Assembly: GCA_947459425.1 (NCBI GenBank)
Contig: CANHDJ010000005.1
Coordinates: forward strand, 1 to 64,000
Length of the DNA: 64,000 bases
Source of the DNA: Ignavibacteria bacterium
GTDB lineage: Bacteria > Bacteroidota > Ignavibacteria > Kapaibacteriales > UBA4661
Direction: 5' to 3'
In this document: positions 7,352-54,805 of the stretch, piece after piece
Position numbering within the stretch: the stretch's first letter is position 1
Layout: the number at the start of each line of letters is the position of its first letter
Translations under genes and position numbers: made by a program
The notes under the pieces: generated by a model
The model's database searches: none
The model's input: only the letters and a program-made list of their open reading frames with translations
What the model was told of the DNA's origin: nothing

Positions 7352-9019
7352 CTATATTGACGAGTCTTTATCGACGGTTTCGGCATCAATCACGGCGACA
7401 ATGTGTGCCGTTGCGCCTTCTTGCGCATTCCCCACCGCGACAATCTGCCGCATTTGCCGCGACAACGCCTCAAAACCGACCTTTGCAACAAAGTACAAAT
7501 ACGGCAATGTGCGTTCCTGCAATCCACCATCGGGATACAGCAACGACGAGGCTTTGCGGGCTTTGCTGAGAGTGGTTTCTTCCAGCCGTTTTTGTGCTTT
7601 GCGCACTTTTGCTTCGAGGTCGCTCACGCCTTGCAAGGCTTGATTTTTCATGCGGTCGGCGCTTGGAGCAAGCGTTGGGTCGAGGTCGGCGATGTGGGGC
7701 TGCACATTGGCAAATGCTTGTTCGATAGCGGCTTTTGCCGCGTCCAGTGCCGCCGCCAAGGGCTTATTTTCCTGCTCTTGCATGATGGATTTTTCTACGT
7801 CCTCGTATCGGCGCATGAAAAACGACGGTTCGACCTTGAGTTTGGCACAAAGCTGTTCTGTGCGAGAATCCATCAGCGTTGCGGAATGCCGCGCCAGTGT
7901 TGCCGACTGTTCCACGCCAAAGATTGGGTACAGTTCCTGAATTTGCGCCAAATACGCAATTTCGCCCGGACCGCCAATGTATGCGGCATTCGGGAATATC
8001 GCATCTTGGACAATCGGGCGCAACAGCACCGATGGGCTGAAGCGATCCGGCTCGTTTGCCGCCAACGCGAGGAGTTCTGCTTTGGAAAAGATTATCTCAC
8101 CCGCTTGAAAACGATCGTTTCCTTCGGCAACATTGATTTTATGCCGTTTTCCGTCGGTATGAAGAAAAAGATTTACCGCCGAAGCCTGTGCCTGTCCGTG
8201 ATAGCCGCGCTCGGCAAGGAATGATGATGCTTGCGCAACAGTTTCCGCCGTCAAACCTGTATTTTCAAGTTCCTTCTGAACAACCTGCTTAAAAAGCCCG
8301 CGTTTGCGCAATTCTACTGCCGACACAAACAGAATGCCACTCGCGCCCAAGGTCGCTTGCAGAATCTGCACAAACGCCTTCACAACAGGTGTTCCGGGCG
8401 TATAAGCCGTGCGCAAAAGTTCGGCAACCTCATGGCTATATTCCGCATTTGGAAGCGCTTCAATAGCTTCATCAAGACTTGCCGTAATAGCGCCATCGTA
8501 GGCGGCATCTGCTGCCGCGACACGCTCCGGCATGAGATTCCATGCGGACTTCAGCGTGAGCGCGTCGCCCTGCTGATTCAGCATTCCAATTTTCGCAATT
8601 TCCTCAATATCATGGTCGTTGTCTTCAATCCAAAAAACGGGAACAAATTGTAAGCCTTTATGCGTGGAAGCGAGATTCTGTGCGGACTGCACGGCAGTCC
8701 ATGCTTTGAGCATCGTATAAAGCGCACCACCCAAATAACCGACTTGCTGACCCGTAATGACGGTGAGACTGGTTTCGGCAGCAAGGCTTTCGAGTTGCTC
8801 ACGCTGTTCCGCCGTTAGCTGAATCGAAGACATTGTTGCGGCAATAGCCTCAATAAACAAGGCACGGTGCGGTGCGGAAGCCGACCGCGCCGTAAGATTT
8901 GCTGTATCAGAAAAAAGTCGGGTATTCGCTTGAAACCGTGAGTGAATATGCTCTTTTTGGTTGATAAAATCCGTAAAGAGCGCAGAAAACCCCAGTGAAG
9001 GAAAAGAAAGTGTAGTCAT
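7352..9019 (-). CDS. bshC: Bacillithiol biosynthesis cysteine-adding enzyme BshC
   Basis: A 555-residue BshC-type putative cysteine ligase, the last step in bacillithiol synthesis (adding Cys to GlcN-malate). The family hallmarks are TVITGQQVGYLGGALYTMLKAWTA near the N-terminus, PVFWIEDNDHDIEEI, the Rossmann-core motif FVSAVELRKR, RPIVQDAIFPNAAYIGGPGEIAYLAQ and the C-terminal coiled coil. The size matches the family (about 540). ATG 9019 (MTTLSFPSLGF) is preferred over the longer frame from 9055. bshA and bshB are not in the window. BshC occurs in Firmicutes and many Bacteroidota/Chlorobi. Confidence 0.92.
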   Translation of the reverse strand: MTTLSFPSLGFSALFTDFINQKEHIHSRFQANTRLFSDTANLTARSASAPHRALFIEAIAATMSSIQLTAEQREQLESLAAETSLTVITGQQVGYLGGALYTMLKAWTAVQSAQNLASTHKGLQFVPVFWIEDNDHDIEEIAKIGMLNQQGDALTLKSAWNLMPERVAAADAAYDGAITASLDEAIEALPNAEYSHEVAELLRTAYTPGTPVVKAFVQILQATLGASGILFVSAVELRKRGLFKQVVQKELENTGLTAETVAQASSFLAERGYHGQAQASAVNLFLHTDGKRHKINVAEGNDRFQAGEIIFSKAELLALAANEPDRFSPSVLLRPIVQDAIFPNAAYIGGPGEIAYLAQIQELYPIFGVEQSATLARHSATLMDSRTEQLCAKLKVEPSFFMRRYEDVEKSIMQEQENKPLAAALDAAKAAIEQAFANVQPHIADLDPTLAPSADRMKNQALQGVSDLEAKVRKAQKRLEETTLSKARKASSLLYPDGGLQERTLPYLYFVAKVGFEALSRQMRQIVAVGNAQEGATAHIVAVIDAETVDKDSSI

Positions 9020-9160
9020 AAAGCGGGAAGCAAGAAGTGGAAAGATGGTATGCAAAAAGGTTTGCGCTCAAGAAAGACGCAAGTATGCGCTGCTATGTTG
9101 CAAGGACGCGGTAAAAATACGCACAAATTTGGTGACTACAGCCAAAAAGGTTTTGCCCTT

Positions 9161-10994: not shown

Positions 10995-11996
10995 CTACGC
11001 CAAAACCCGCGCCACATCAACCGAAACATCAAGTTCCGCCGTTGCTGCGCTTAACATCACGCCTTTGAGCGGCGCAACGTCGGCGTAATCGCGCCCCCAG
11101 CCAACGGTTAAATGCTGGTTGCGGACAAGATGATTATTCGTCGGGTCGAACTCGACCCAGCCCAGCGACGGCTCAAAGACTGCTATCCAAGCGTGTGAGG
11201 CATCCGCACCGACAAGGCGCTCTTTGCCTTCGGGGGGAATTGTTTCGATATAACCGCTCACATACCGCGCCGCTAATCCCAATGAACGCAAGCATCCAAG
11301 CGCTAGATGGGCAAAATCTTGGCACACACCTTTTCGCTCGCGCAGCACCGTTGCAATCGGCGTACTGATGGTCGTAAAGCCGGGAACATACTTAAAATCA
11401 GCATGAATACGCCGCACAAAATCACGCACGGCTTCCAAAAGCGGTCGCCCGGGCGCAAACGATGGCAAAGCGTAATCGCGTAATTCCGCCGAAATACCCG
11501 CAAATGCCGATGGAAACACGTATTGCGCCGCATCCAGCACCATTGCAGACGTATTCGTATCCACCACCAGCCCAATAAGCGGGAATTGCATCATTTCGGC
11601 AACCCGCTCCCACGCTTCGCTAGAGGACAAAAAATCATCACTAACGGGCGCATAACACAGCCGCTCAATGACGCTTGATGCCGTCACGGTCAAGGTCTCA
11701 TGCGGCTTTTGGAGTGCAAAATAGAGAACTTCATTACCGAAAAAATCAACGTGGGTGCGCTCGTCGTCGGGACGAGGCAGAATTTGCAGGGAACTGGTGA
11801 TGCAGCGCTGCTCTAAAAGCGGCGTAGAATAGGAGCGCGGCGTAAGCAACGCCTCATTCTGGCAAACGTTCACGGTTCCTTGATAGGTGTATTCGGTCAG
11901 ATGCACAATGCGAAAGCGCTGCGAGGAAATAGATGCCCCAAACGCTGTGTGCGGGTCGGTCAAATCAGGCTGTATGAGTGTTTCTTGTGTGTTCAT
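10995..11996 (-). CDS. Transglutaminase-like protein
   Basis: A 333-residue protein with an N-terminal bacterial transglutaminase beta-domain (residues ~27-120, starting FRIVHLTEYTYQG) and a transglutaminase core. The apparent catalytic triad is Cys225 (KGVCQDFAH), His268 (DASHAWIAV) and Asp284 (WVEFDPTNN). Such proteins are predicted cysteine proteases or amidases and are often encoded near alpha-E or circularly permuted ATP-grasp proteins. Neither partner is in this window. No signal peptide. Substrate unknown. Confidence 0.88.
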   Translation of the reverse strand: MNTQETLIQPDLTDPHTAFGASISSQRFRIVHLTEYTYQGTVNVCQNEALLTPRSYSTPLLEQRCITSSLQILPRPDDERTHVDFFGNEVLYFALQKPHETLTVTASSVIERLCYAPVSDDFLSSSEAWERVAEMMQFPLIGLVVDTNTSAMVLDAAQYVFPSAFAGISAELRDYALPSFAPGRPLLEAVRDFVRRIHADFKYVPGFTTISTPIATVLRERKGVCQDFAHLALGCLRSLGLAARYVSGYIETIPPEGKERLVGADASHAWIAVFEPSLGWVEFDPTNNHLVRNQHLTVGWGRDYADVAPLKGVMLSAATAELDVSVDVARVLA

Positions 11997-12125
11997 AGCA
12001 GTAAAGCAGATGGGCGGAATTGATGGACAACCAAACTATACGGAATATGAGTGAAGTATGTTTTTATGCGGCTTCTACGATTCATTCCTTGTATGTTATC
12101 CCTTCCTTATTGTTTTTCCTCGCGC

Positions 12126-13277
12126 CTACACCGTAATCTTCCTTCTCCGCGCCAAAACTGCCCTCACGCCTGTAACAGTGCTTCCTTCAGGCGATTCCTC
12201 CACCCAATATGCTTGGTCATACAAATTCACCGTTGGGCAGATATGATAGGGTACGCCATAGAGTGCGTCGCCAACCTGCAATCGCTCCCAAAGCGCATTG
12301 TTGCTGATGCGGATGACGCTGTGTTCTTCGCTTTGTCTCAAAAGCTCATAGCTTTCGAGGTTCAAAAAACGAATGCGTTTCTCAATCGGATTTTCCGCAG
12401 CCACGGCTTTGTGTCCCATATCTACCGAAATTAAGCCCTGAAGCGGTTTTGAGATGATGCGCGTCAGAACAAGTCCAGCGTATTCGTACTCCTGTTCTGG
12501 CAAAATTTCAGCGTAGCCCCAATCCCACAGTACGCACGTTCCCGGGCTGCGAAACCGCTCCCAATGGGCGCTGTGAACCGAAAATGCCGGAGTGCCGCCC
12601 GCAATCACCATCGGCGGCGTGCCATGCCAAGCCGTGATTTCTTTGCAGAGCGTCTCAACATCGTGGAAGCCTGATTCTATCGTGCTTTTGCGCTCCTCAA
12701 AATTTTCTTGACGAATATGTCCGTCGTAGGCGTGCAAGCCGTGAAGTCGCAGGTGGGGCAGCGCGGCAATATGCTTGTACAACGCAAGAGTGCTTGCGCC
12801 GAGCGGTGTGCCGGAACGATTCATACCGTTATTCACATCCAAAAGCACGTCGCTATTTGCCTCGTGCGCCGCAAAAAAATCACTGTGTTGCTGTGCTGTG
12901 TGGGCGTTGTCGAGTAGTGAAGCAAAAAACACGTCGGGGTATTGTTGCTTGAGAGCAAGCAGTCGTGCGGTTTTTGGGGGAACAAGTTGGTGCGCAATCA
13001 CCACATATTTCGCCCCCGTCATCGCCAGCATTTCTGCCTCGGCAATCGTCGCACACTTGAAGCGCGAAATGCCCGCTTGTAGCATCATTTCGACAACGGC
13101 GGGCGTTTTATTGGTCTTGATGTGCGGTATCAGACGCTCTGTTCCATGCGAACGCTCAATCATTCGTGCGATATTGCACCGCACTCTGTCCGCGTACATT
13201 AACAGCGAGGGAGAATCAAGTGTGTCAACGTTTTGGATGGTGTACCAATCGGAAGTTGCCTCTGGAGTAGTCATCAT
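12126..13277 (-). CDS. PLP-dependent D-threonine aldolase / D-serine dehydratase-like enzyme
   Basis: A 383-residue protein with an N-terminal alanine-racemase-like TIM barrel (PLP lysine expected in HIKTNKT, residues 53-59) and a C-terminal DSD1-type beta domain. That domain has the metal-binding HICPTVNL motif characteristic of D-threonine aldolases and eukaryotic-type D-serine dehydratases. It likely acts on D-beta-hydroxy amino acids. The motif GLHAYDGHIR is also typical. Its ATG overlaps the stop of the upstream Uma2 gene (TAATG), indicating translational coupling. A second ATG three bases on is equally possible as start. Confidence 0.85.
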   Translation of the reverse strand: MMTTPEATSDWYTIQNVDTLDSPSLLMYADRVRCNIARMIERSHGTERLIPHIKTNKTPAVVEMMLQAGISRFKCATIAEAEMLAMTGAKYVVIAHQLVPPKTARLLALKQQYPDVFFASLLDNAHTAQQHSDFFAAHEANSDVLLDVNNGMNRSGTPLGASTLALYKHIAALPHLRLHGLHAYDGHIRQENFEERKSTIESGFHDVETLCKEITAWHGTPPMVIAGGTPAFSVHSAHWERFRSPGTCVLWDWGYAEILPEQEYEYAGLVLTRIISKPLQGLISVDMGHKAVAAENPIEKRIRFLNLESYELLRQSEEHSVIRISNNALWERLQVGDALYGVPYHICPTVNLYDQAYWVEESPEGSTVTGVRAVLARRRKITV

Positions 13278-20664: not shown

Positions 20665-22179
20665 TTATCGGCTAACAGTGAGCATAATGTTTTGTTGCTG
20701 CTCCCCAGCGAAAAGCCGACACGAGTACATACCCGTTGGGAGGGCATCGGTAATGATGTTCAAGGATTGATCGCCCGCACCTTGCGTTTCACGAAGACTC
20801 ATTACCGTTTGTCCGAGAAGATTGACAACATCAAGGCGAATATCACTTGCCGATAAAAGCCTGTACTGGAGCGTTGTTTGAGCCGATGCAGGGTTTGGAG
20901 AAATAGTCATTGTGCCTTGCAGAGCGCTTGGTGGTGGGGCGTTCACGGATGTTGCAAGACGGGAAAAAGGAACAAGTGCAGGATCGCCGAGAAGTGCAAT
21001 CCGGCGTACGATGTCGTCCTGCGGCGGCATTCCAACAGTGTACATCTCACTTTTTGCATTGAGAATTGCCGTGCCGACATCAATGCTCTTGGTGAAAATC
21101 TCCCGAAAGTACAAACGGATAAAGAAGCCATTATCGAGATAAGTGGAATACCCCGATGAAGCAATAGTCAAGGCAGCACCGCCGTTATCCAGAAGCATCA
21201 TCGCCTCGACAATAGACGGTTTGCGGGGCGCGTCATAATTCTGGCTGCATCCGAGCGTAACCATCATAAATGGCTTGCCATTGCGAGCGAGGTTATTCCC
21301 AACATCATCCGTTGTTAAAATGCTATACTTTGACCATACTTCCGGCGCTCCATGCCCATAATACATGACTATTGGCTTATTATCGCTCATCGCATTTGTC
21401 ACTTGTCGCCGGGCGTTGGGCTGTGTTGCAATAGTTTGATAATTGACAACATTCATATTCATCGGCTTTTTGACACTATATCGCAGAAAATTATCCAAGA
21501 GAAAAACTTGACTATCAAAAACTTCATTGTCTTCGGCATCTAAAATAACCGTTGCGCGAGTACTGAGGTCGAATCCCAAGCTATTACCACTCTCCTCAAA
21601 AAGCCGTGTTTTTGCCAGTACTCGACGAATTTCCGCCGACGTGCGCCCGGGAATACGCCCAATAGCCGCTTGTGGTCGAGTGGTAAACTCTTGACGATAC
21701 TTATTAACGACATACCATTCATCCATCGGGATAGAATCTTCATGAAAGATAAAGGGCGGCCGCGTGAAAAGATCAATCCCAACTTTAACGCGGTAGGCGG
21801 GCAGAAGATTCGTGCTACCAACAAGCATCACGCGACTTGGTGCGGGTTTTGACCAAAACTGGAGTGTATAGCCAATGAACGTCCGAATAGCTTCGGCTTG
21901 CGACTGCGGCAAATTTTTTGTGGAATCGCCAAATTCACGGTTAATGTCTTCGATGGTAACAATGCGTGTTCGCAGTGCCGGATGGGTTGCCGTTGTTCGA
22001 GAGCGCCATTCTGCGTGTGCCTGAAGGTCACTGGCAAATTGCGAGGGGGTAATAATGAGGTAGTCAACGCGGCTGTCGGTGCGCAAAAGCGACTCCGACG
22101 AGGTGATAAGTTGGGAGTAAGCAAAAACAGGAAAACAAACGAAGCCAATAATGGTGATGATGGACATCAAATGCCGCAT
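20665..22179 (-). CDS. Gingipain-like C25 cysteine peptidase with T9SS sorting domain
   Basis: A 504-residue secreted protein. A signal peptide (to about residue 22) is followed by a peptidase C25 domain with catalytic His276 (MYYGHGAPEVW) and Cys311 (VTLGCSQNYDAPRKPSIVEAMML). The domain ends with the conserved RIALLGDPAL block. The last ~80 residues (from TMTISPNPASAQTTLQYRLL to the end) form a type A T9SS sorting domain, so the protein is exported and attached to or released from the cell surface. It is much shorter than gingipains and lacks haemagglutinin domains. It may alternatively be a T9SS-linked peptidase of the PorU type, but PorU is much larger. Confidence 0.88.
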   Translation of the reverse strand: MRHLMSIITIIGFVCFPVFAYSQLITSSESLLRTDSRVDYLIITPSQFASDLQAHAEWRSRTTATHPALRTRIVTIEDINREFGDSTKNLPQSQAEAIRTFIGYTLQFWSKPAPSRVMLVGSTNLLPAYRVKVGIDLFTRPPFIFHEDSIPMDEWYVVNKYRQEFTTRPQAAIGRIPGRTSAEIRRVLAKTRLFEESGNSLGFDLSTRATVILDAEDNEVFDSQVFLLDNFLRYSVKKPMNMNVVNYQTIATQPNARRQVTNAMSDNKPIVMYYGHGAPEVWSKYSILTTDDVGNNLARNGKPFMMVTLGCSQNYDAPRKPSIVEAMMLLDNGGAALTIASSGYSTYLDNGFFIRLYFREIFTKSIDVGTAILNAKSEMYTVGMPPQDDIVRRIALLGDPALVPFSRLATSVNAPPPSALQGTMTISPNPASAQTTLQYRLLSASDIRLDVVNLLGQTVMSLRETQGAGDQSLNIITDALPTGMYSCRLFAGEQQQNIMLTVSR

Positions 22180-27269: not shown

Positions 27270-29468
27270 TTAGCGCGTAACGCTAAATTTCTGTGCTGCC
27301 GTTCCGTTTGATGTCGCCACTTGCACCATGTACAAACCTTGCGACAAATTGCTTACATCCATACGGAATTCGTAGATGCCTTCTGATTGTTGAACGCCAT
27401 TTGCCAAGACCGCTACAAGGTTGCCCAGTGCGTCGTGGACGCGAATTGTTACGCGGTCACTGCTTGGGAGATTGTAGCGCACGGTGGCTTGAATTGTGGC
27501 AGGATTTGGAAAGGTCACGATATTAAGCGACGTGGTAGCAGGTACTCTGTCGTCAGCAACACGGGAGGTCGGACCACCGGCGCGGTACGGGAAGTTTACG
27601 GGGTCGTAGGTAGCCCAGCCCAAATCCCAACGATTGGTAATGCCCGAAGCCGTCACGTCAAACGCGCCTTGATAGGGAACACGGGTGAAAAAACTATCAT
27701 CAATACGAACACTGCTTGTAGCGGGGCGCTCAAAGGAGGCGCGAGTCAAGATGGAAGCATTTGCAAGCGGGCGTGGGTCGAAATTGCGCTGCGTAGCAGG
27801 TGAGCCATCAGTATTGGTGATAACTACATCTCGCCCAAATGCAGAGCCAACTTCATCATACAAATCCACCAAACCACTTTGATTGATAACGCGATTGCCA
27901 CGTGTTGCATCCAAAAACCATGCTGATGTGAGGGCTGCGGGAATTGGATTTGCAGCCGTACCGCCCGGAGTGATAAGAGCAGCGCCTTTTACGCCATACC
28001 ACGTGTTATTGCGAACAAGAAGCGAATCGGTAACAGCAGCATTGCCTGTGCGGTCAGCTTGCAACTCGAATCCGGCGCGGGGCCAGCCGATAAAGACGGA
28101 ATTAACGATGGATTGACGCGAGTTACGGCGAGTCTGCGCTGCACTGCCATAACTTGTGTTCCACTGATTTGCGCCTGAACCGCCGGATTGCGCCGTGTCC
28201 GATACAGGACCAATGACCGTACAGTTAGAAAAAATTGGGCTGGTCAAGGGGAGATTAAATGAACCGCCCGCATCATTATCGGATTCAAATGCCTGAGATG
28301 TCGATTGGTCGGCAGTTTGTGAGCCGCGAACAATCAAGCCAAATTGAACACGCCCCGTAAAACCGAAGTCTGTATCAAAGTCGTCGTCGATTGCATTCTG
28401 AGAAATGAGATATTTTGCATCCACATTTCCGCCAAACCATTCGATACCGTCATCATTCGCAAACGATGATTGCACCCAACGAATGACGGTGCGGCGACCA
28501 ACGCCACCAAGCGTGATACCGTTCAATTCCTCATTAGGGAATGCAGCGATACCGCCAAATTCCACACGAACATATTCGAGAACACCCGAACTGTCATTAT
28601 CATCCGAGCCGCCATACCAACCACGAACACGGCTGTCATCGCCGATACCGCCTTCAAAGGCAACCGAACCGCCGCCACCGGAGGTCGTATTGATGCGGGC
28701 GCGACCTGCTATGAGCAAACCGCCCCAATCACCGGCGCGACGCTGACCGCTAACGGCGCGGCTTGTAAAGACAATCGGCAACTGGCGTGTACCTTGCGCA
28801 AATAAAATGCCGCCGCGATTCACACAAAGAGCGGAGTTTTGCCCAACGGTGTCGCCAACAACGATGGTTCCCGGCTCGATGCGCAATACGGCTGCCGAAT
28901 CCACAAAAACATAGCCATCCAAACCGTAGATTTTACCCCGACTGAGCGTTACCGTGCGTCCAGCGGTGATATTGCCCGTAAGCGTTGAATCAACGGTCAG
29001 CGCCGGAGGAGCCGCCAAAACGGTAAATCTATTGGAAACAGCCGTGCGCGAGGTATCGGCGGTATTGACCAAACGCAAATACCCATTGTCGGTTTGTGCG
29101 GTGAGCCGTATCGTAAGCCGAGAAATACCGCGACCTGAGCGACTACCAGCGCCCGGAGCGATATTGCCCACAGCGCCATCGGTGTGAATAAGCGGCTCTG
29201 AACGAAGAGTGGAGGTGTTACGCACTAAAATTGGTGTCCAGGGACCGTTCGCACCTGCGGAGGAAAATTCGATACGGTAGGTTGTATTTGCTGGCGAACC
29301 GGTGGTATCCCAACGGAGTGAGTACGTGATACCAAGACGCAAGGTATCAAGACGTGCCGTCGTTGCATTCGCCACGACAGTAAGATTAGTCGGTTGTGCA
29401 AGGGTAGTCGTTGTTGAAAAAGCAACAACAGCAAAAAGGCAAGCTAATCCGGTAAGTATTCGCTTCAT
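27270..29468 (-). CDS. Secreted T9SS-sorted protein with beta-helix-like core
   Basis: A 732-residue secreted protein with signal peptide MKRILTGLACLFAVVAFSTT to about residue 24. A beta-sandwich N-terminal part (to ~residue 150) is followed by a right-handed beta-helix-like domain: GNITAGRTVTLSRGKIYGLDG, IEPGTIVVGD, GDWGGLLIAGRA, GVLEYVRVEFGG, NDDGIEWFGGNVD and DDDFDTDFG. A type A T9SS sorting domain fills the last ~80 residues (NIVTFPNPATIQATVRYNL to the end). Proteins of this type are often encoded beside TonB-dependent receptors in Bacteroidota, as here. It shares an upstream repeat box with the receptor gene, suggesting co-regulation. Confidence 0.8.
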   Translation of the reverse strand: MKRILTGLACLFAVVAFSTTTTLAQPTNLTVVANATTARLDTLRLGITYSLRWDTTGSPANTTYRIEFSSAGANGPWTPILVRNTSTLRSEPLIHTDGAVGNIAPGAGSRSGRGISRLTIRLTAQTDNGYLRLVNTADTSRTAVSNRFTVLAAPPALTVDSTLTGNITAGRTVTLSRGKIYGLDGYVFVDSAAVLRIEPGTIVVGDTVGQNSALCVNRGGILFAQGTRQLPIVFTSRAVSGQRRAGDWGGLLIAGRARINTTSGGGGSVAFEGGIGDDSRVRGWYGGSDDNDSSGVLEYVRVEFGGIAAFPNEELNGITLGGVGRRTVIRWVQSSFANDDGIEWFGGNVDAKYLISQNAIDDDFDTDFGFTGRVQFGLIVRGSQTADQSTSQAFESDNDAGGSFNLPLTSPIFSNCTVIGPVSDTAQSGGSGANQWNTSYGSAAQTRRNSRQSIVNSVFIGWPRAGFELQADRTGNAAVTDSLLVRNNTWYGVKGAALITPGGTAANPIPAALTSAWFLDATRGNRVINQSGLVDLYDEVGSAFGRDVVITNTDGSPATQRNFDPRPLANASILTRASFERPATSSVRIDDSFFTRVPYQGAFDVTASGITNRWDLGWATYDPVNFPYRAGGPTSRVADDRVPATTSLNIVTFPNPATIQATVRYNLPSSDRVTIRVHDALGNLVAVLANGVQQSEGIYEFRMDVSNLSQGLYMVQVATSNGTAAQKFSVTR

Positions 29469-48690: not shown

Positions 48691-49197
48691 TTATGAACGT
48701 TTGATAGTCAACGATTTTACTTGTCGAACCCAGCGACCATTGCGTTTTTCGTGGGGAACGATGATGCAGAGCGCACCAGCATAGTCGTCAAGCGGTTTCC
48801 CATCACGTTTATCAGCAAGTAAAACAATATTTTCCGTGACAAGCGGATCAAGTTCCGGCAAAGCAAACACGACTTTGTAGCCGTCGAGTGCTTCCACAAC
48901 GAGATATTTTGAAAGCTCGGAATGTTTAAGATCTGCACCAAATTTTACTCCCCCACGACGTAAAACCTCGTGAAGCTCAACGCCTTCAAACGTGACCATT
49001 GTTGTTGATTTGTAATTTTTCGCGCTGACTTTTTTGCGTGGCATTGTTTCTAATACCTTGTAGTCGAGCGCGAGACGAGGTATTCCATCGCCTTCAATAA
49101 TGAGCGAATCGCCTGTAGCCGCAAGTAATGAGGTTGTCTGGATTTCAACGGTAAAAAACAGCACAAAAGAGAATGCAAGCCAGAGAAAAGACTTCAT
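48691..49197 (-). CDS. Exported sulfite-oxidase-fold (molybdopterin-binding-like) domain protein
   Basis: A 168-residue exported protein (signal to about residue 27). It matches the oxidoreductase molybdopterin-binding fold: TTMVTFEGVELHEVLRRGGVKF, LVVEALDGYKVVFALPELDPLV, ENIVLLADKRDGKPLDD and the terminal GRWVRQVKSLTI. The cofactor-coordinating cysteine of sulfite oxidases is not evident. It resembles the stand-alone, probably cofactor-free members. It lies 113 bp upstream of the TonB receptor and could be part of the same unit. Confidence 0.78.
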   Translation of the reverse strand: MKSFLWLAFSFVLFFTVEIQTTSLLAATGDSLIIEGDGIPRLALDYKVLETMPRKKVSAKNYKSTTMVTFEGVELHEVLRRGGVKFGADLKHSELSKYLVVEALDGYKVVFALPELDPLVTENIVLLADKRDGKPLDDYAGALCIIVPHEKRNGRWVRQVKSLTIKRS

Positions 49198-50686: not shown

Positions 50687-51292
50687 CTATAAATTACGCA
50701 ATTTCTCTCGCCAATTTCCCACAAAACCGATAACACGCCGCAAATAACCGATAAGTTTGGGAATAATGATAAATGCCGCAACAACGCCGACGACAACAAC
50801 GGCAATCATTACCATCGGATAGTACACCGCCAGCGATACGCCGCCGATTGTCAGCACGTCCTCTGCTGCGCTGACGGCGATATTGGAGACGGGTTCGGGA
50901 CTGGTGTTGATGGCAGCACGGGTGGTGGCTTTGGTGGTGTGCGACGTTAATGCCAAACCACCGCCGATAAGGAGCGCAATCGTCTGAATTGTTGAATCAA
51001 ACGTCGTGACACTCGCCGCCGCCAATACCGCACCCGCCGGAACACGAATAAAGGTGTGAATGGCATCCCACGCCGTATCAACGGCAGGAATTTTATCGGC
51101 AACAAATTCTACACAGTACATCGCTCCGGCAATACCAATAACCCACCAATTCGTCAAAGCGTCCAAACTGCCCGGCAAAGGAACGTGCGCAAAACGTCCC
51201 AACAAGCCAAGCGTGGCGACTGTTGCGTAAAGATTCACGCCAGAAAGCCACGATGACCCCATTGCCATTGCCAATGTACTGGTTGTGTCCAT
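50687..51292 (-). CDS. DUF4126 membrane protein
   Basis: A 201-residue integral membrane protein with about five or six helices. It has the DUF4126 pattern MGSSWLSGVNLYATVATLGLLGRF, LTNWWVIGIAGAMYCVEFVADKIPAVDTAWDAIHTFIRVPAGAVLAA. Function unknown. It lies 51 bp upstream of the GlsB-like gene and may be co-transcribed with it; both are small stress-type or envelope proteins. Confidence 0.88.
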   Translation of the reverse strand: MDTTSTLAMAMGSSWLSGVNLYATVATLGLLGRFAHVPLPGSLDALTNWWVIGIAGAMYCVEFVADKIPAVDTAWDAIHTFIRVPAGAVLAAASVTTFDSTIQTIALLIGGGLALTSHTTKATTRAAINTSPEPVSNIAVSAAEDVLTIGGVSLAVYYPMVMIAVVVVGVVAAFIIIPKLIGYLRRVIGFVGNWREKLRNL

Positions 51293-51343: not shown

Positions 51344-52579
51344 TCAATAAAAGAAATGAACTTGAAGATTCCACCGCGTGGCAGTAACGCGCTCATTGTC
51401 GTAGAAACGCCATTCGGGGCGGAGTTCGATGTAGGGCAGCGGAAACCACTGCACCCCAACGGTCAGATTATTAGCAAAAGTCGTATTTTTTTCATTGATG
51501 TTGACCAATGACTCTGTGCGCCCTTGTTCATAGCGCACGTAGGGATAGAGCCACGCAAAGGGGCGATAGGTCAGTTCCAACGTCCAATTGCGGGCAGAAA
51601 AACTCTTGCTAACATCCGCTATCAGATACTCACCCATCAGCGAAAGTTTATCCGTCAAGCCTACGCCCGCAAATATACTCAGCATTTGGAGATTACCATT
51701 CGCCAAAATCGACGAGCCGAGGTAGGAATTCAGAGCATGATCTTCGGTGCGAAGCCAGAATTTTACCCGTCCCGTTAGTGTTGGCGAGCGGAGTTGACGG
51801 GCAAAGGAAGAATCCGGCGCGATGGTATTGCCGATAATAGAGCCAAACGAACCATCACGGTATTCCGTATTGATAGCCGATAAATTTTGCGGTAAAAATG
51901 CGCCTACCGAGAGCGAAAGCCATTGCAAGCCGTCATATTGCAGTTCTGCACCCCAATCCGCATACATCGGCGGAATGAGCGGTTTTGGAAAAGCACCCGC
52001 CACCTGACGAATGAGCATGGTGTGGTCGTCGTAGCGAACACCAATGGTGGGCTGGAAATGCCCAACACGCAAGAGCGGCAGTGTAATGCCGGGCTGAATC
52101 AGCGCTGAAGCCGTCCAACCGGATTGCCCCCGATACGTTCCCCGTGCAGACTCCCATAACGAAGCCGCATCGAAGCCGCCTTCTAGGGTCAACCACTCCA
52201 ATCCATTCAGTTTTAATGCGCCGTAGAGCGCTAATTGCATCGGGAAAAACTTTCGAGGCGCAGCATCTCGTATAGGTGAGCGAGTCATCTGCCCACGCAA
52301 ATCCATGCCAATCGTAAGTTGCCCGTCAATATAGCTATTCGATTCGCCATCCAACGCATAGAGTTCGCGCAGAAGCGGAATATCCTTCGGATTCAGCATT
52401 GATGCGTCTTTGGCGACATACCAGCCCAGTTCGCTGCGAATGCCGCCACCTTGTGCGTTCACGTGGCACGTCAAGCAGCGATTTCCAGTTAATAAGGAAA
52501 ATTGAGGAAGAGCCGCAAGAGGAGGTACTTCCAACGTACAGAGAATGAGAACTATGCAAAAACGGGCAAGAATATTCAT
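51344..52579 (-). CDS. Outer-membrane beta-barrel with one N-terminal c-type heme motif
   Basis: A 411-residue exported protein (signal to about residue 22, ending PPLAA). Just inside the mature N-terminus is a single CxxCH heme-binding motif, NRCLTCHVNAQGGG, followed by about 340 residues of beta-barrel-like strands ending LQVHFFY. The motif GNRCLTCHVNAQGGGIRSELG matches a group of uncharacterised porin-like proteins with GxxCxxCHxNPxGGGxRxxxG. Covalent heme attachment would need a cytochrome c maturation system, which is not in this window. Probable roles are electron transfer across the outer membrane or a heme-tethered pore; both are speculative. Confidence 0.8.
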   Translation of the reverse strand: MNILARFCIVLILCTLEVPPLAALPQFSLLTGNRCLTCHVNAQGGGIRSELGWYVAKDASMLNPKDIPLLRELYALDGESNSYIDGQLTIGMDLRGQMTRSPIRDAAPRKFFPMQLALYGALKLNGLEWLTLEGGFDAASLWESARGTYRGQSGWTASALIQPGITLPLLRVGHFQPTIGVRYDDHTMLIRQVAGAFPKPLIPPMYADWGAELQYDGLQWLSLSVGAFLPQNLSAINTEYRDGSFGSIIGNTIAPDSSFARQLRSPTLTGRVKFWLRTEDHALNSYLGSSILANGNLQMLSIFAGVGLTDKLSLMGEYLIADVSKSFSARNWTLELTYRPFAWLYPYVRYEQGRTESLVNINEKNTTFANNLTVGVQWFPLPYIELRPEWRFYDNERVTATRWNLQVHFFY

Positions 52580-52611: not shown

Positions 52612-53562
52612 CTATTTGCCTTGTGTACGACCAATAACCTGTTCACGCTTCGTTATCGGCTCGACGGTGTAGCCTTGCTTACGCAGAAGCATTATCACGC
52701 CATTGTCTCCAACCAAATGCCCCGCACCGACAGCAAAAAATGTCGGCTTTGCCGTCATCATTTTTTCAATGCGTGGCAGCCATAATTTGTTTCTGGCATC
52801 AAGAAGCGTCTTGGTATATTCCTTGCTGCTAGGTTGGCTGGCAAGTAGAGGCTCGCTGGCAAGGGATTGCATTGTACCAATGATGTTTTCTGCTTTGTAC
52901 TCTTGTGCCGCTCTTCGTAAATCTGCTTGGATTTTCTTCCAATATGGTATCATCGCAACGATACTTTGTGTGAGAAGAGAATCAAACTTGGGTGCCGTTA
53001 CCCCAAGTTTTGTGCGGTCTTCGGTGGTTTCTAGTCCGGTAAATTCATGGTTATAGCCGCGTGTTTCGTTATCGCGTCTCGAAACCCCAATAACAACGTC
53101 CTCCGCACCTGTTTTCATGCAATCAAGCATCTTTCCTATCATTCGACGTACCAGAAGTGGCGGGCGGGTCTTTGTCCAGATACTATCAGGGATGAAAAGC
53201 GTTGTCGTCATAAAATGTCGGAGGCGCTGATAATCCTTTTCCTCTAGCCAGCGCTTATAGCTATCGGTATCGGTGAGCATATATTGCTGTAGCGCATTGG
53301 TCATATCTTGCTTATTAAAAAAATCCATTTCAAAGGCGATGCGTTGACATTTATTCATTGCCTCAATAGTCTGCCCACGCAAGATGAAATCCTGCACGCA
53401 AATCAGATGAATAGTGCCGTACAAATAAGAAGGCTGTGTCAATTTCTTGCCCGAAATTCGCCATAACAGCGAGTTCTCAAGAGGCTTTTGAGCAGAGAGA
53501 GTGGTATGCAATAGCATCATTGCCAAGACAATAATGAGTAGTTTTATCAAGTGTTTACGCAT
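52612..53562 (-). CDS. TraB/GumN-family protein
   Basis: A 316-residue exported TraB/GumN protein (signal at MRKHLIKLLIIVLAMMLL, ending LSAQ). Conserved blocks are LWRISGKKLTQPSYLYGTIHL near the N-terminus, GLETTEDRTKLGV, and FAVGAGHLVGDNGVIMLLRKQGY near the end. The GTIH and GxGHLxG motifs are thought to form a metal-dependent peptidase-like site. ATG 53562 is used; the frame extends to 53625 without a better signal peptide. It follows the MlaE-type gene by 22 bp and is likely co-transcribed with it. Confidence 0.9.
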   Translation of the reverse strand: MRKHLIKLLIIVLAMMLLHTTLSAQKPLENSLLWRISGKKLTQPSYLYGTIHLICVQDFILRGQTIEAMNKCQRIAFEMDFFNKQDMTNALQQYMLTDTDSYKRWLEEKDYQRLRHFMTTTLFIPDSIWTKTRPPLLVRRMIGKMLDCMKTGAEDVVIGVSRRDNETRGYNHEFTGLETTEDRTKLGVTAPKFDSLLTQSIVAMIPYWKKIQADLRRAAQEYKAENIIGTMQSLASEPLLASQPSSKEYTKTLLDARNKLWLPRIEKMMTAKPTFFAVGAGHLVGDNGVIMLLRKQGYTVEPITKREQVIGRTQGK

Positions 53563-53584
53563 AAGCAGTGGCAAAGGAAAAATT

Positions 53585-54757
53585 TTACAAACCAATCGCC
53601 TGAAAAATAACCGTAAAAATTGCATCCAGCAAAATAATTAAAAATATACCACTCACCACTGCCGATGTCGTAAAATGCCCAACACTCTCAGCACCGCCGC
53701 GCACCTGAAAACCGCGCATACAGCCGACAAGAGCAATCACCGCGCCCAACACGACACTTTTCAGCAAACCGCTTGCTAAATGTGCAACGGTGAGTGCAAC
53801 TTTTGTTTCGTTCAAATACCCACTCACACTGAGTTTTAGCGCTCCAATGCCAATGAGCAAACCGCCAAACATTCCGGCAATATCAGAAAACAGCACCAAA
53901 AGTGGCATCACGCAGACCACCGCCACCACACGCGGCATCACAAGGAAACGCATAGGATTGAAACCCATCGTGGTGAGTGCGTCAATCTCTTCGGCAACCT
54001 GCATCGTGCCAATTTCGGCAGCAAAGGCAGCACCGGAGCGCCCTGCAACGATAATTGCCGTCATAAGAGGTGCTAATTCTCGTGCCATCGAAATCGCAAC
54101 CATGTCCGCTAGGTATATTTCCGCACCAAACTGTGCAAGCTGCATTGCGCCTTGATAGCCGACAATAACGCCCATCAAAAAACCTACCAAAGCAACAATC
54201 GGCAGAGCGCTCACTCCCGCTTTGGTGACTTGTGCCGGAAAATCACTCCAACGAATGGAGCGTGGCGCACGAATCAAGTACGTCAGATTGATAAAAAATT
54301 CACCAAAAAACTCAACAAAAAATCGCACGTCCGCCCAGACTTGAAGCGTCGCCTCGCCGACGCTTTCCACGTAGCGGTGGAGCGATGTTTCTGCTGGCGG
54401 TTCGACGTGCTTTTCGAGTAAAGGGCGCTCCAAAAGCGTGATAAAATCTTGCATTTGCTCATGAATATACTGTACATCCAGCACAATTCCACGCTCTTTG
54501 CAAAAACGCTTTGCCGTTGCCAGCCAAATAACCACGTAGGAGTCATATTCTTCCACTGCTGCCATATCCACTGTAAGACGCTTGTGAGCGGATGCTTCCA
54601 AGCCAGCAAACAGAAGTATTTGTGCGGCTTCGTAGGCGCTGGCATCACTGAGCGTACAACGCCCTTCGGTAATACGGCAGTAGGTATAGGTTTGGAACTG
54701 CTGCACATCCAGCAGCGAGGCAGTTTTTGTGGAGGCTTGTGGTGATGAGGTGTTCAT
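53585..54757 (-). CDS. mlaE: MlaE-type ABC permease with N-terminal STAS-like domain
   Basis: A 390-residue phospholipid-transport permease. Residues 1-115 resemble a STAS domain (KRLTVDMAAVEEYDSYVVIWLATAKRFCKERGIVL), and residues ~140-390 are the MlaE permease. Family motifs are ALPIVALVGFLMGVIVGYQGAMQLAQFGAEIYLADMV, RELAPLMTAIIVAGRSGAAFAAEIGTMQVAEEIDAL and PRVVAVVCVMPLLVLFSD. The fusion occurs in various bacteria. The usual MlaF ATPase and MlaD genes are not adjacent. It shares its strand with the TraB gene downstream (22 bp). Confidence 0.92.
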   Translation of the reverse strand: MNTSSPQASTKTASLLDVQQFQTYTYCRITEGRCTLSDASAYEAAQILLFAGLEASAHKRLTVDMAAVEEYDSYVVIWLATAKRFCKERGIVLDVQYIHEQMQDFITLLERPLLEKHVEPPAETSLHRYVESVGEATLQVWADVRFFVEFFGEFFINLTYLIRAPRSIRWSDFPAQVTKAGVSALPIVALVGFLMGVIVGYQGAMQLAQFGAEIYLADMVAISMARELAPLMTAIIVAGRSGAAFAAEIGTMQVAEEIDALTTMGFNPMRFLVMPRVVAVVCVMPLLVLFSDIAGMFGGLLIGIGALKLSVSGYLNETKVALTVAHLASGLLKSVVLGAVIALVGCMRGFQVRGGAESVGHFTTSAVVSGIFLIILLDAIFTVIFQAIGL

Positions 54758-54773
54758 GGTGGTTCGGGAATAC

Positions 54774-54805
54774 AAAAGCCCGTCGTTCAGGGGAAAACGG
54801 GCTTT
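54774..54805 (-). terminator. Intrinsic terminator upstream of the mlaE gene
   Basis: A stem AAAGCCCGT / ACGGGCTTT with a 13-nt loop and a short T-run on the minus strand. It lies just after the gene ending at 54830 and before the mlaE start at 54757. Confidence 0.7.

Follow-up and report, generated by a model that had tools for sequence, protein, structure and literature searches.

The closest described counterparts of the protein considered here are Cyc2 and Cyt572, the fused monoheme cytochrome-porins that function as Fe(II) oxidases (PMC8406198, PMC5566968). Cyc2 unites a signal peptide, a single CxxCH motif and a 16-strand porin in one chain; Fe(II) oxidation has been demonstrated for Cyc2PV-1, which has a redox potential of 208 mV, and the structural templates given for Cyc2 include OprP and OprO (PMC8406198). 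In one published survey, 'Cyc2 homologs' are listed for the Ignavibacteriaceae (PMC6344600).

We analyzed a 64,000-nucleotide stretch of an Ignavibacteria bacterium genome, hereafter the window, in which a sequence-only reading had singled out an outer-membrane barrel bearing an N-terminal CLTCH heme motif in the same polypeptide. The open reading frame (Table 1) and its predicted 16-strand barrel bear out this fusion. The further claim that such a fusion is unusual when set against the multi-heme complexes is overstated, since Cyc2 and Cyt572 are already one-polypeptide, one-heme cytochrome-porins (PMC8406198, PMC5566968). We consider it fairly probable that the window protein is an outer-membrane electron-transfer protein with a Cyc2-like build that belongs to a separate family.

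Heme segment and barrel of the window protein

Table 1. Features of the barrel locus and its immediate neighbors (positions in the window)
Feature	Position	Strand	Remarks
Fused monoheme cytochrome-porin	51344..52579	-	ORF with ATG start, 411 aa; homologues in 54/61 genomes; 16-strand barrel predicted
Signal peptide, residues 1-22	52514..52579	-	read by eye; cleavage near PPLAA/LPQF
Heme-binding CLTCH, residues 35-39	52463..52477	-	invariant in 65/65 order and 18/18 more distant homologues
Post-heme segment VNAQGGGIRSELG, residues 40-52	52424..52462	-	conserved G44, R48, G52
16-strand beta-barrel, residues 88-410	51350..52318	-	predicted structure and DSSP; nearest folds OmpU, OprP 2o4v, OprO 4rjw
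DDHT, residues 184-187	52019..52030	-	between strands 5 and 6, the porin loop L3 position; D185 83/83, H186 80/83
TraB/PrgY/GumN family, upstream neighbor	52612..53625	-	32-nt gap; not a conserved partner
MlaE permease, upstream neighbor	53585..54775	-	adjoins the window-type copy in several genus members
DUF4126 membrane protein, downstream neighbor	50687..51292	-	51-nt gap; beside the barrel only in this genome and in the near-identical G002

The N-terminus of the protein, MNILARFCIVLILCTLEVPPLAALPQFSLLTGNRCLTCHVNAQGGGIRSELGWY, comprises the signal peptide followed by CLTCH; the first residues of the mature form (23-39) read ALPQFSLLTGNR-CLTCH and lead through VNAQGGGIRSELGWY into the barrel. 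A CxxCH arises by chance in just 0.04% of shuffled proteins of equal composition (4 Cys, 5 His). In our alignments C35, C38, H39 and R48 are identical across all 65 relatives from the order, the CxxCH is invariant in all 18 class-level relatives, and the CxxCH, R48 and G52 persist in relatives down to about 31-35% identity. The organism also encodes an 800-aa CcmF-type and a 350-aa CcmC-like protein; with both a CxxCH and a maturation system present at the level of the genes, the window protein is predicted to be a c-type cytochrome with covalently bound heme. Thus, the two points on which the sequence-only reading had staked its case, namely the conservation of the motif in homologues and the presence of cytochrome c maturation genes, came out in its favor. 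Domain searches recovered no Pfam or NCBIfam family for the heme part and a sub-threshold Pfam match to the barrel alone, and a sequence search of the PDB returned nothing relevant.

An AlphaFold2 model of the mature protein (41 sequences; mean pLDDT 85.2, pTM 0.85) likewise upholds the barrel: DSSP counts 16 strands, with short helices flanking the heme loop. Confidence is low at the heme segment (residues 39-52) because the model lacks the heme. The top PDB folds in a Foldseek search are the 16-strand porins OmpU, OprP and OprO, with identities of about 9-12% and TM-scores around 0.5-0.6. Scoring barrel conservation over 83 sequences (65 from the order and 18 class-level relatives) revealed a set of residues conserved in both groups: G91, D93, R95, Q97, M114, G173, F175, P177, G180, D184, D185, H186, T187, R349, an acid at 351, R391, Q406 and H408. 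M114 and D185 are kept in every sequence and H408 in 82. H186 is replaced in three sequences, each time by Met; as this is the sole substitute, the exchange would suit a heme or metal ligand, which we offer as a suggestion only. The residues in D93/R95/Q97, R349/E351, E389/R391 and Q406/H408 alternate along their strands in the manner of side chains on the same face, and in the model strands 13-16 and 1-2 adjoin each other across the barrel closure. The DDHT lies in a segment (residues 176-207) that connects strands 5 and 6 in the model, where classical porins have their constriction loop L3. We infer a putative binding site in the lumen of the modeled barrel, between the DDHT loop and the heme.

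Conservation of these barrel residues greatly exceeds that described for the Cyc2 porin domain (PMC8406198), a difference suggestive of a specific ligand. Such conservation would suit an outer-membrane redox enzyme or a sensor-gated porin that serves as no conduit at all, its heme and lumen site acting on, or gating the uptake of, a particular small molecule. We regard this as quite improbable, given that the operon partners described below are electron carriers and not catabolic or transport genes. Of the two roles that had been proposed from the sequence, electron transfer across the outer membrane stands as the best reading, while the redox-gated pore is left without positive support.

Distribution, gene neighborhoods and the second copy

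A whole-genome search of the order recovered homologues in nearly all of its genomes, the source genome counted (Table 1). Profile matches occur throughout the class and almost nowhere else in our sample of the phylum; named relatives are mostly from Candidatus Kapaibacterium and Ignavibacteria MAGs, with one match in a Latescibacteria assembly. The chromosome of the latter (L131) carries two similar barrel copies in tandem (7911-9080 and 11823-12593, the second frame being shorter), each preceded by a ~300-aa protein of one family; a recent duplication or a lateral transfer is possible.

Neighbor clustering and family assignment revealed a recurrent gene order: one or more heme proteins, the barrel, a ~100-aa membrane protein, a YceI protein and a Rieske protein. 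Among 60 distinct barrel loci with at least 2.5 kb of downstream sequence, the Rieske gene follows the barrel in 44, YceI in 24 and the small membrane protein in 20, with all three absent downstream in 13; a heme protein lies no more than two genes upstream in 21. As the source genome has only three Rieske genes in 3.4 Mb, the barrel-Rieske linkage is not a matter of chance. Most Rieske partners possess a CxHxxC...CxCH pattern, while in some the disulfide cysteines are missing; essentially all 60 Rieske sequences read show a CxH together with another Cys/His pair, and 55 of the 60 have an RR signal followed by a Cys in a possible lipobox. The usual company of Rieske, YceI and cytochrome genes suggests, as far as gene content goes, an undescribed electron route across the outer membrane.

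One barrel family, f3, has a gene for a 5-6 heme cytochrome upstream of the barrel and further multiheme proteins after it. At the f3 loci L050 (7214-10969), L051, L054 and L059 the barrel cluster continues into a 13-heme protein, and at some of them also includes a multiheme membrane protein; the extended cluster looks like a possible electron path from the inner to the outer membrane.

The association of Rieske, YceI and cytochromes within one cluster, together with the 5-6 heme cytochromes upstream of the f3 barrels and the 13-heme proteins nearby, could also be read as a system for outward transfer. YceI domains bind isoprenoids, and electrons from quinol or cytochromes might then pass via the Rieske protein and YceI, the latter perhaps carrying quinones or isoprenoids, to the heme, and from there to a soluble extracellular acceptor such as humics, quinones or Fe(III) chelates. 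However, one heme located at the periplasmic mouth could not relay electrons as far as a solid surface, and the architectural relatives that have been studied experimentally, the Cyc2 proteins, oxidize Fe(II); hence, we hold outward transfer to be unlikely.

Next to the barrel gene, several class-level relatives encode a one-heme protein of ~220-240 aa with a CxxCHxNPxGGGxRNxFG-like segment (L146 7623-8306, L147 3098-3769, L149 6728-7399, L152 7267-7938, L154 7103-7762, L155 7188-7913 and L158 6935-7600). The one example scanned, from L147, has a Temptin_C match and a type IX secretion tail, which suggests that proteins of this type might be surface-exposed cytochrome partners of the barrel. 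The CxxCHxNxxGGGxR context, previously surmised to be a recurring one, does recur in the class-level barrel relatives and in these adjacent Temptin_C proteins.

The source genome encodes two barrel copies. The copy on contig C37 shares 46% identity with that of the window and has the full set of cytochrome lipoprotein, barrel, small membrane protein, YceI and Rieske, whereas gene order at the window locus places no redox partner beside the barrel. In a phylogenetic tree the window copy falls in a clade (support 100/98) with copies from other members of the genus, apart from the operon-type copies, and two window-type copies, those in G004 and G005, have a cytochrome-lipoprotein gene downstream. 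The lack of conserved partner genes, and a relative's copy (G003) that reads as two frames and contains a stretch of unknown residues, might be taken as signs that the window gene is a decaying, functionless duplicate. Against this, five window-type copies from different species keep the CxxCH and all the residues listed above, the other four share 57-79% identity with the window copy within their well-supported clade, and the G003 break falls at unresolved bases and is probably an assembly gap. Such decay is therefore highly improbable; the supported clade, the kept residues and the cytochrome-lipoprotein genes in G004 and G005 mark the window copy, by its sequence record, as a maintained paralogue, which probably shares carriers made elsewhere. 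The conserved barrel residues specific to the family, the Rieske/YceI/cytochrome operon and the status of the window gene as a second copy without partners all go beyond the sequence-only reading.

Elsewhere in the window, a gene for a small exported protein that matches the molybdopterin oxidoreductase domain PF00174 below threshold (48691-49197, minus strand; E 1.3e-4) adjoins a TonB-dependent receptor gene, and type IX secretion sorting tails are present on a C25 (gingipain-type) peptidase and on another protein (20665-22179 and 27270-29468, both on the minus strand).

Proposed path of the electron

Under the preferred reading, the heme domain would plug the barrel at its periplasmic mouth. 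From outside, a small, soluble substrate capable of redox chemistry would enter, bind near the DDHT segment and the conserved wall made up of strands 13-16 and 1-2, and exchange one electron with the heme, which in turn would exchange it with periplasmic carriers: in the case of the operon-borne paralogue, the cytochrome lipoprotein and the Rieske protein. The substrate is most likely a small soluble molecule, with Fe(II) as the leading guess. The disulfide-type CxHxxC...CxCH ligand set found in most of the Rieske partners is typical of high-potential Rieske centers; this, along with the analogy to Cyc2, makes inward transfer, in which Fe(II) or some comparable donor would be oxidized, the likeliest direction.

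Some observations count against this picture. No redox partner lies beside the window copy itself, and the near-universal presence of the family in the order, even in genomes of 2 Mb, agrees with a general role whose link to iron is less obvious. We tentatively entertain a stronger version, one that could well prove too bold: that these proteins represent a second, separately specialized kind of monoheme cytochrome-porin, with a dedicated substrate site in the lumen and a Rieske-YceI-cytochrome chain. They would then form an undescribed redox module across the outer membrane that is nearly universal among bacteria of the Kapaibacteria type and need not use iron as its substrate.

Relation to Cyc2 and other known systems

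Like Cyc2, the window protein is a single polypeptide with a signal peptide and one N-terminal CxxCH about a dozen residues into the mature protein, has a 16-strand barrel with OprP and OprO among its nearest solved folds, and shares the heme spacing AxPxF....G..CxxCH; at 411 aa it is close to Cyc2 in size (about 410 aa) and lies above the Cyc2 length threshold of at least 365 residues. Unlike Cyc2, the family never shows FAR[Q/K][T/Y] before the heme and has GGxR...G after it instead: AxPxFAR[Q/K][T/Y] upstream of the CxxCH is found in 0/65 order and 0/18 class-level relatives (the window protein has ALPQFSLLT), with the AxPx[FY] portion retained in 42/65 and 14/18, respectively. The PxL four residues after the CxxCH is likewise seen in 0/83 relatives, residues 40-52 standing in its place in the window protein; this is a weak criterion because PxL is also absent from 30/30 Chlorobia Cyc2-motif proteins. 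The barrel residues conserved here do not appear as invariant positions in the Chlorobia-type Cyc2 alignment, and the Rieske/YceI operon further distinguishes the barrel family from Cyc2.

A Cyc2 profile run against the window protein gave no significant match (hmmsearch, Z set to 1000; E 0.027). For profile comparisons, we retrieved Cyc2-motif proteins by a DNA pattern search within the same phylum, which matched 58 of 396 genomes and had no hit in the source genome; the retrieved proteins are single-heme and of Cyc2 length. Against these, whole profiles scored 96.6% for the order family and 98.7% for the class-level group, and the heme segments aligned with the same spacing at probabilities of 85% and 93%, respectively. 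Reversed-profile controls against the barrel parts gave 0.2-0.3%, but heme-less PF07396 porins reached 0.2-27% against the order family and 57-95% against the class-level group. We therefore rejected similarity of the barrel profiles as proof of kinship with Cyc2: 16-strand barrels are distantly alike in general, and the specific link is carried mainly by the heme segment and the shared architecture. Proteins with the Cyc2 motif PAFAR[KQ]....CxxCH also occur in the same order alongside the barrel family (L199, L200, L201 and L202, from G020, G034 and G053), with G020 encoding two of them and three barrels of the window family.

None of the 83 relatives has the diagnostic motif, so the window family is not Cyc2 by the published motif. 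It is probably a distant sister of Cyc2 and, by analogy, in all likelihood works like it. This type of architecture is thus already known; descriptions of the family, of its conserved barrel residues and of its operon seem to be lacking from the literature searched, which included few subscription journals and yielded no matching reports on YceI and Rieske together with Cyc2 or on Kapaibacter cytochromes. Cyc2 is used as a marker in iron-oxidation surveys, and 'Cyc2-like' calls in Ignavibacteria may mix two families. A sister architecture with other motifs, a putative binding site and a testable Rieske/YceI operon broadens the set of one-heme outer-membrane electron-transfer proteins, and indicates that a one-heme barrel can come close to being a core trait throughout a bacterial order that is not known for oxidizing iron.

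Other known systems resemble the window protein in part. The MtrAB/MtoAB/PioAB and OmbB-OmaB-OmcB complexes likewise pass electrons across the outer membrane by means of a barrel and c-type heme, but consist of a separate multiheme cytochrome and porin (26 strands in MtrCAB); with one heme, one chain and 16 strands, the window protein falls outside the Mtr/Mto type. OprP, OprO and the general 16-strand porins have the barrel fold in common with it but lack a heme domain and are 10-11% identical to it in sequence. The Temptin_C monoheme proteins (PF24784), in turn, share the CxxCHxNPxGGGxRNxFG-type heme segment with the barrel family but have no barrel, the one scanned example ending in a type IX secretion tail.
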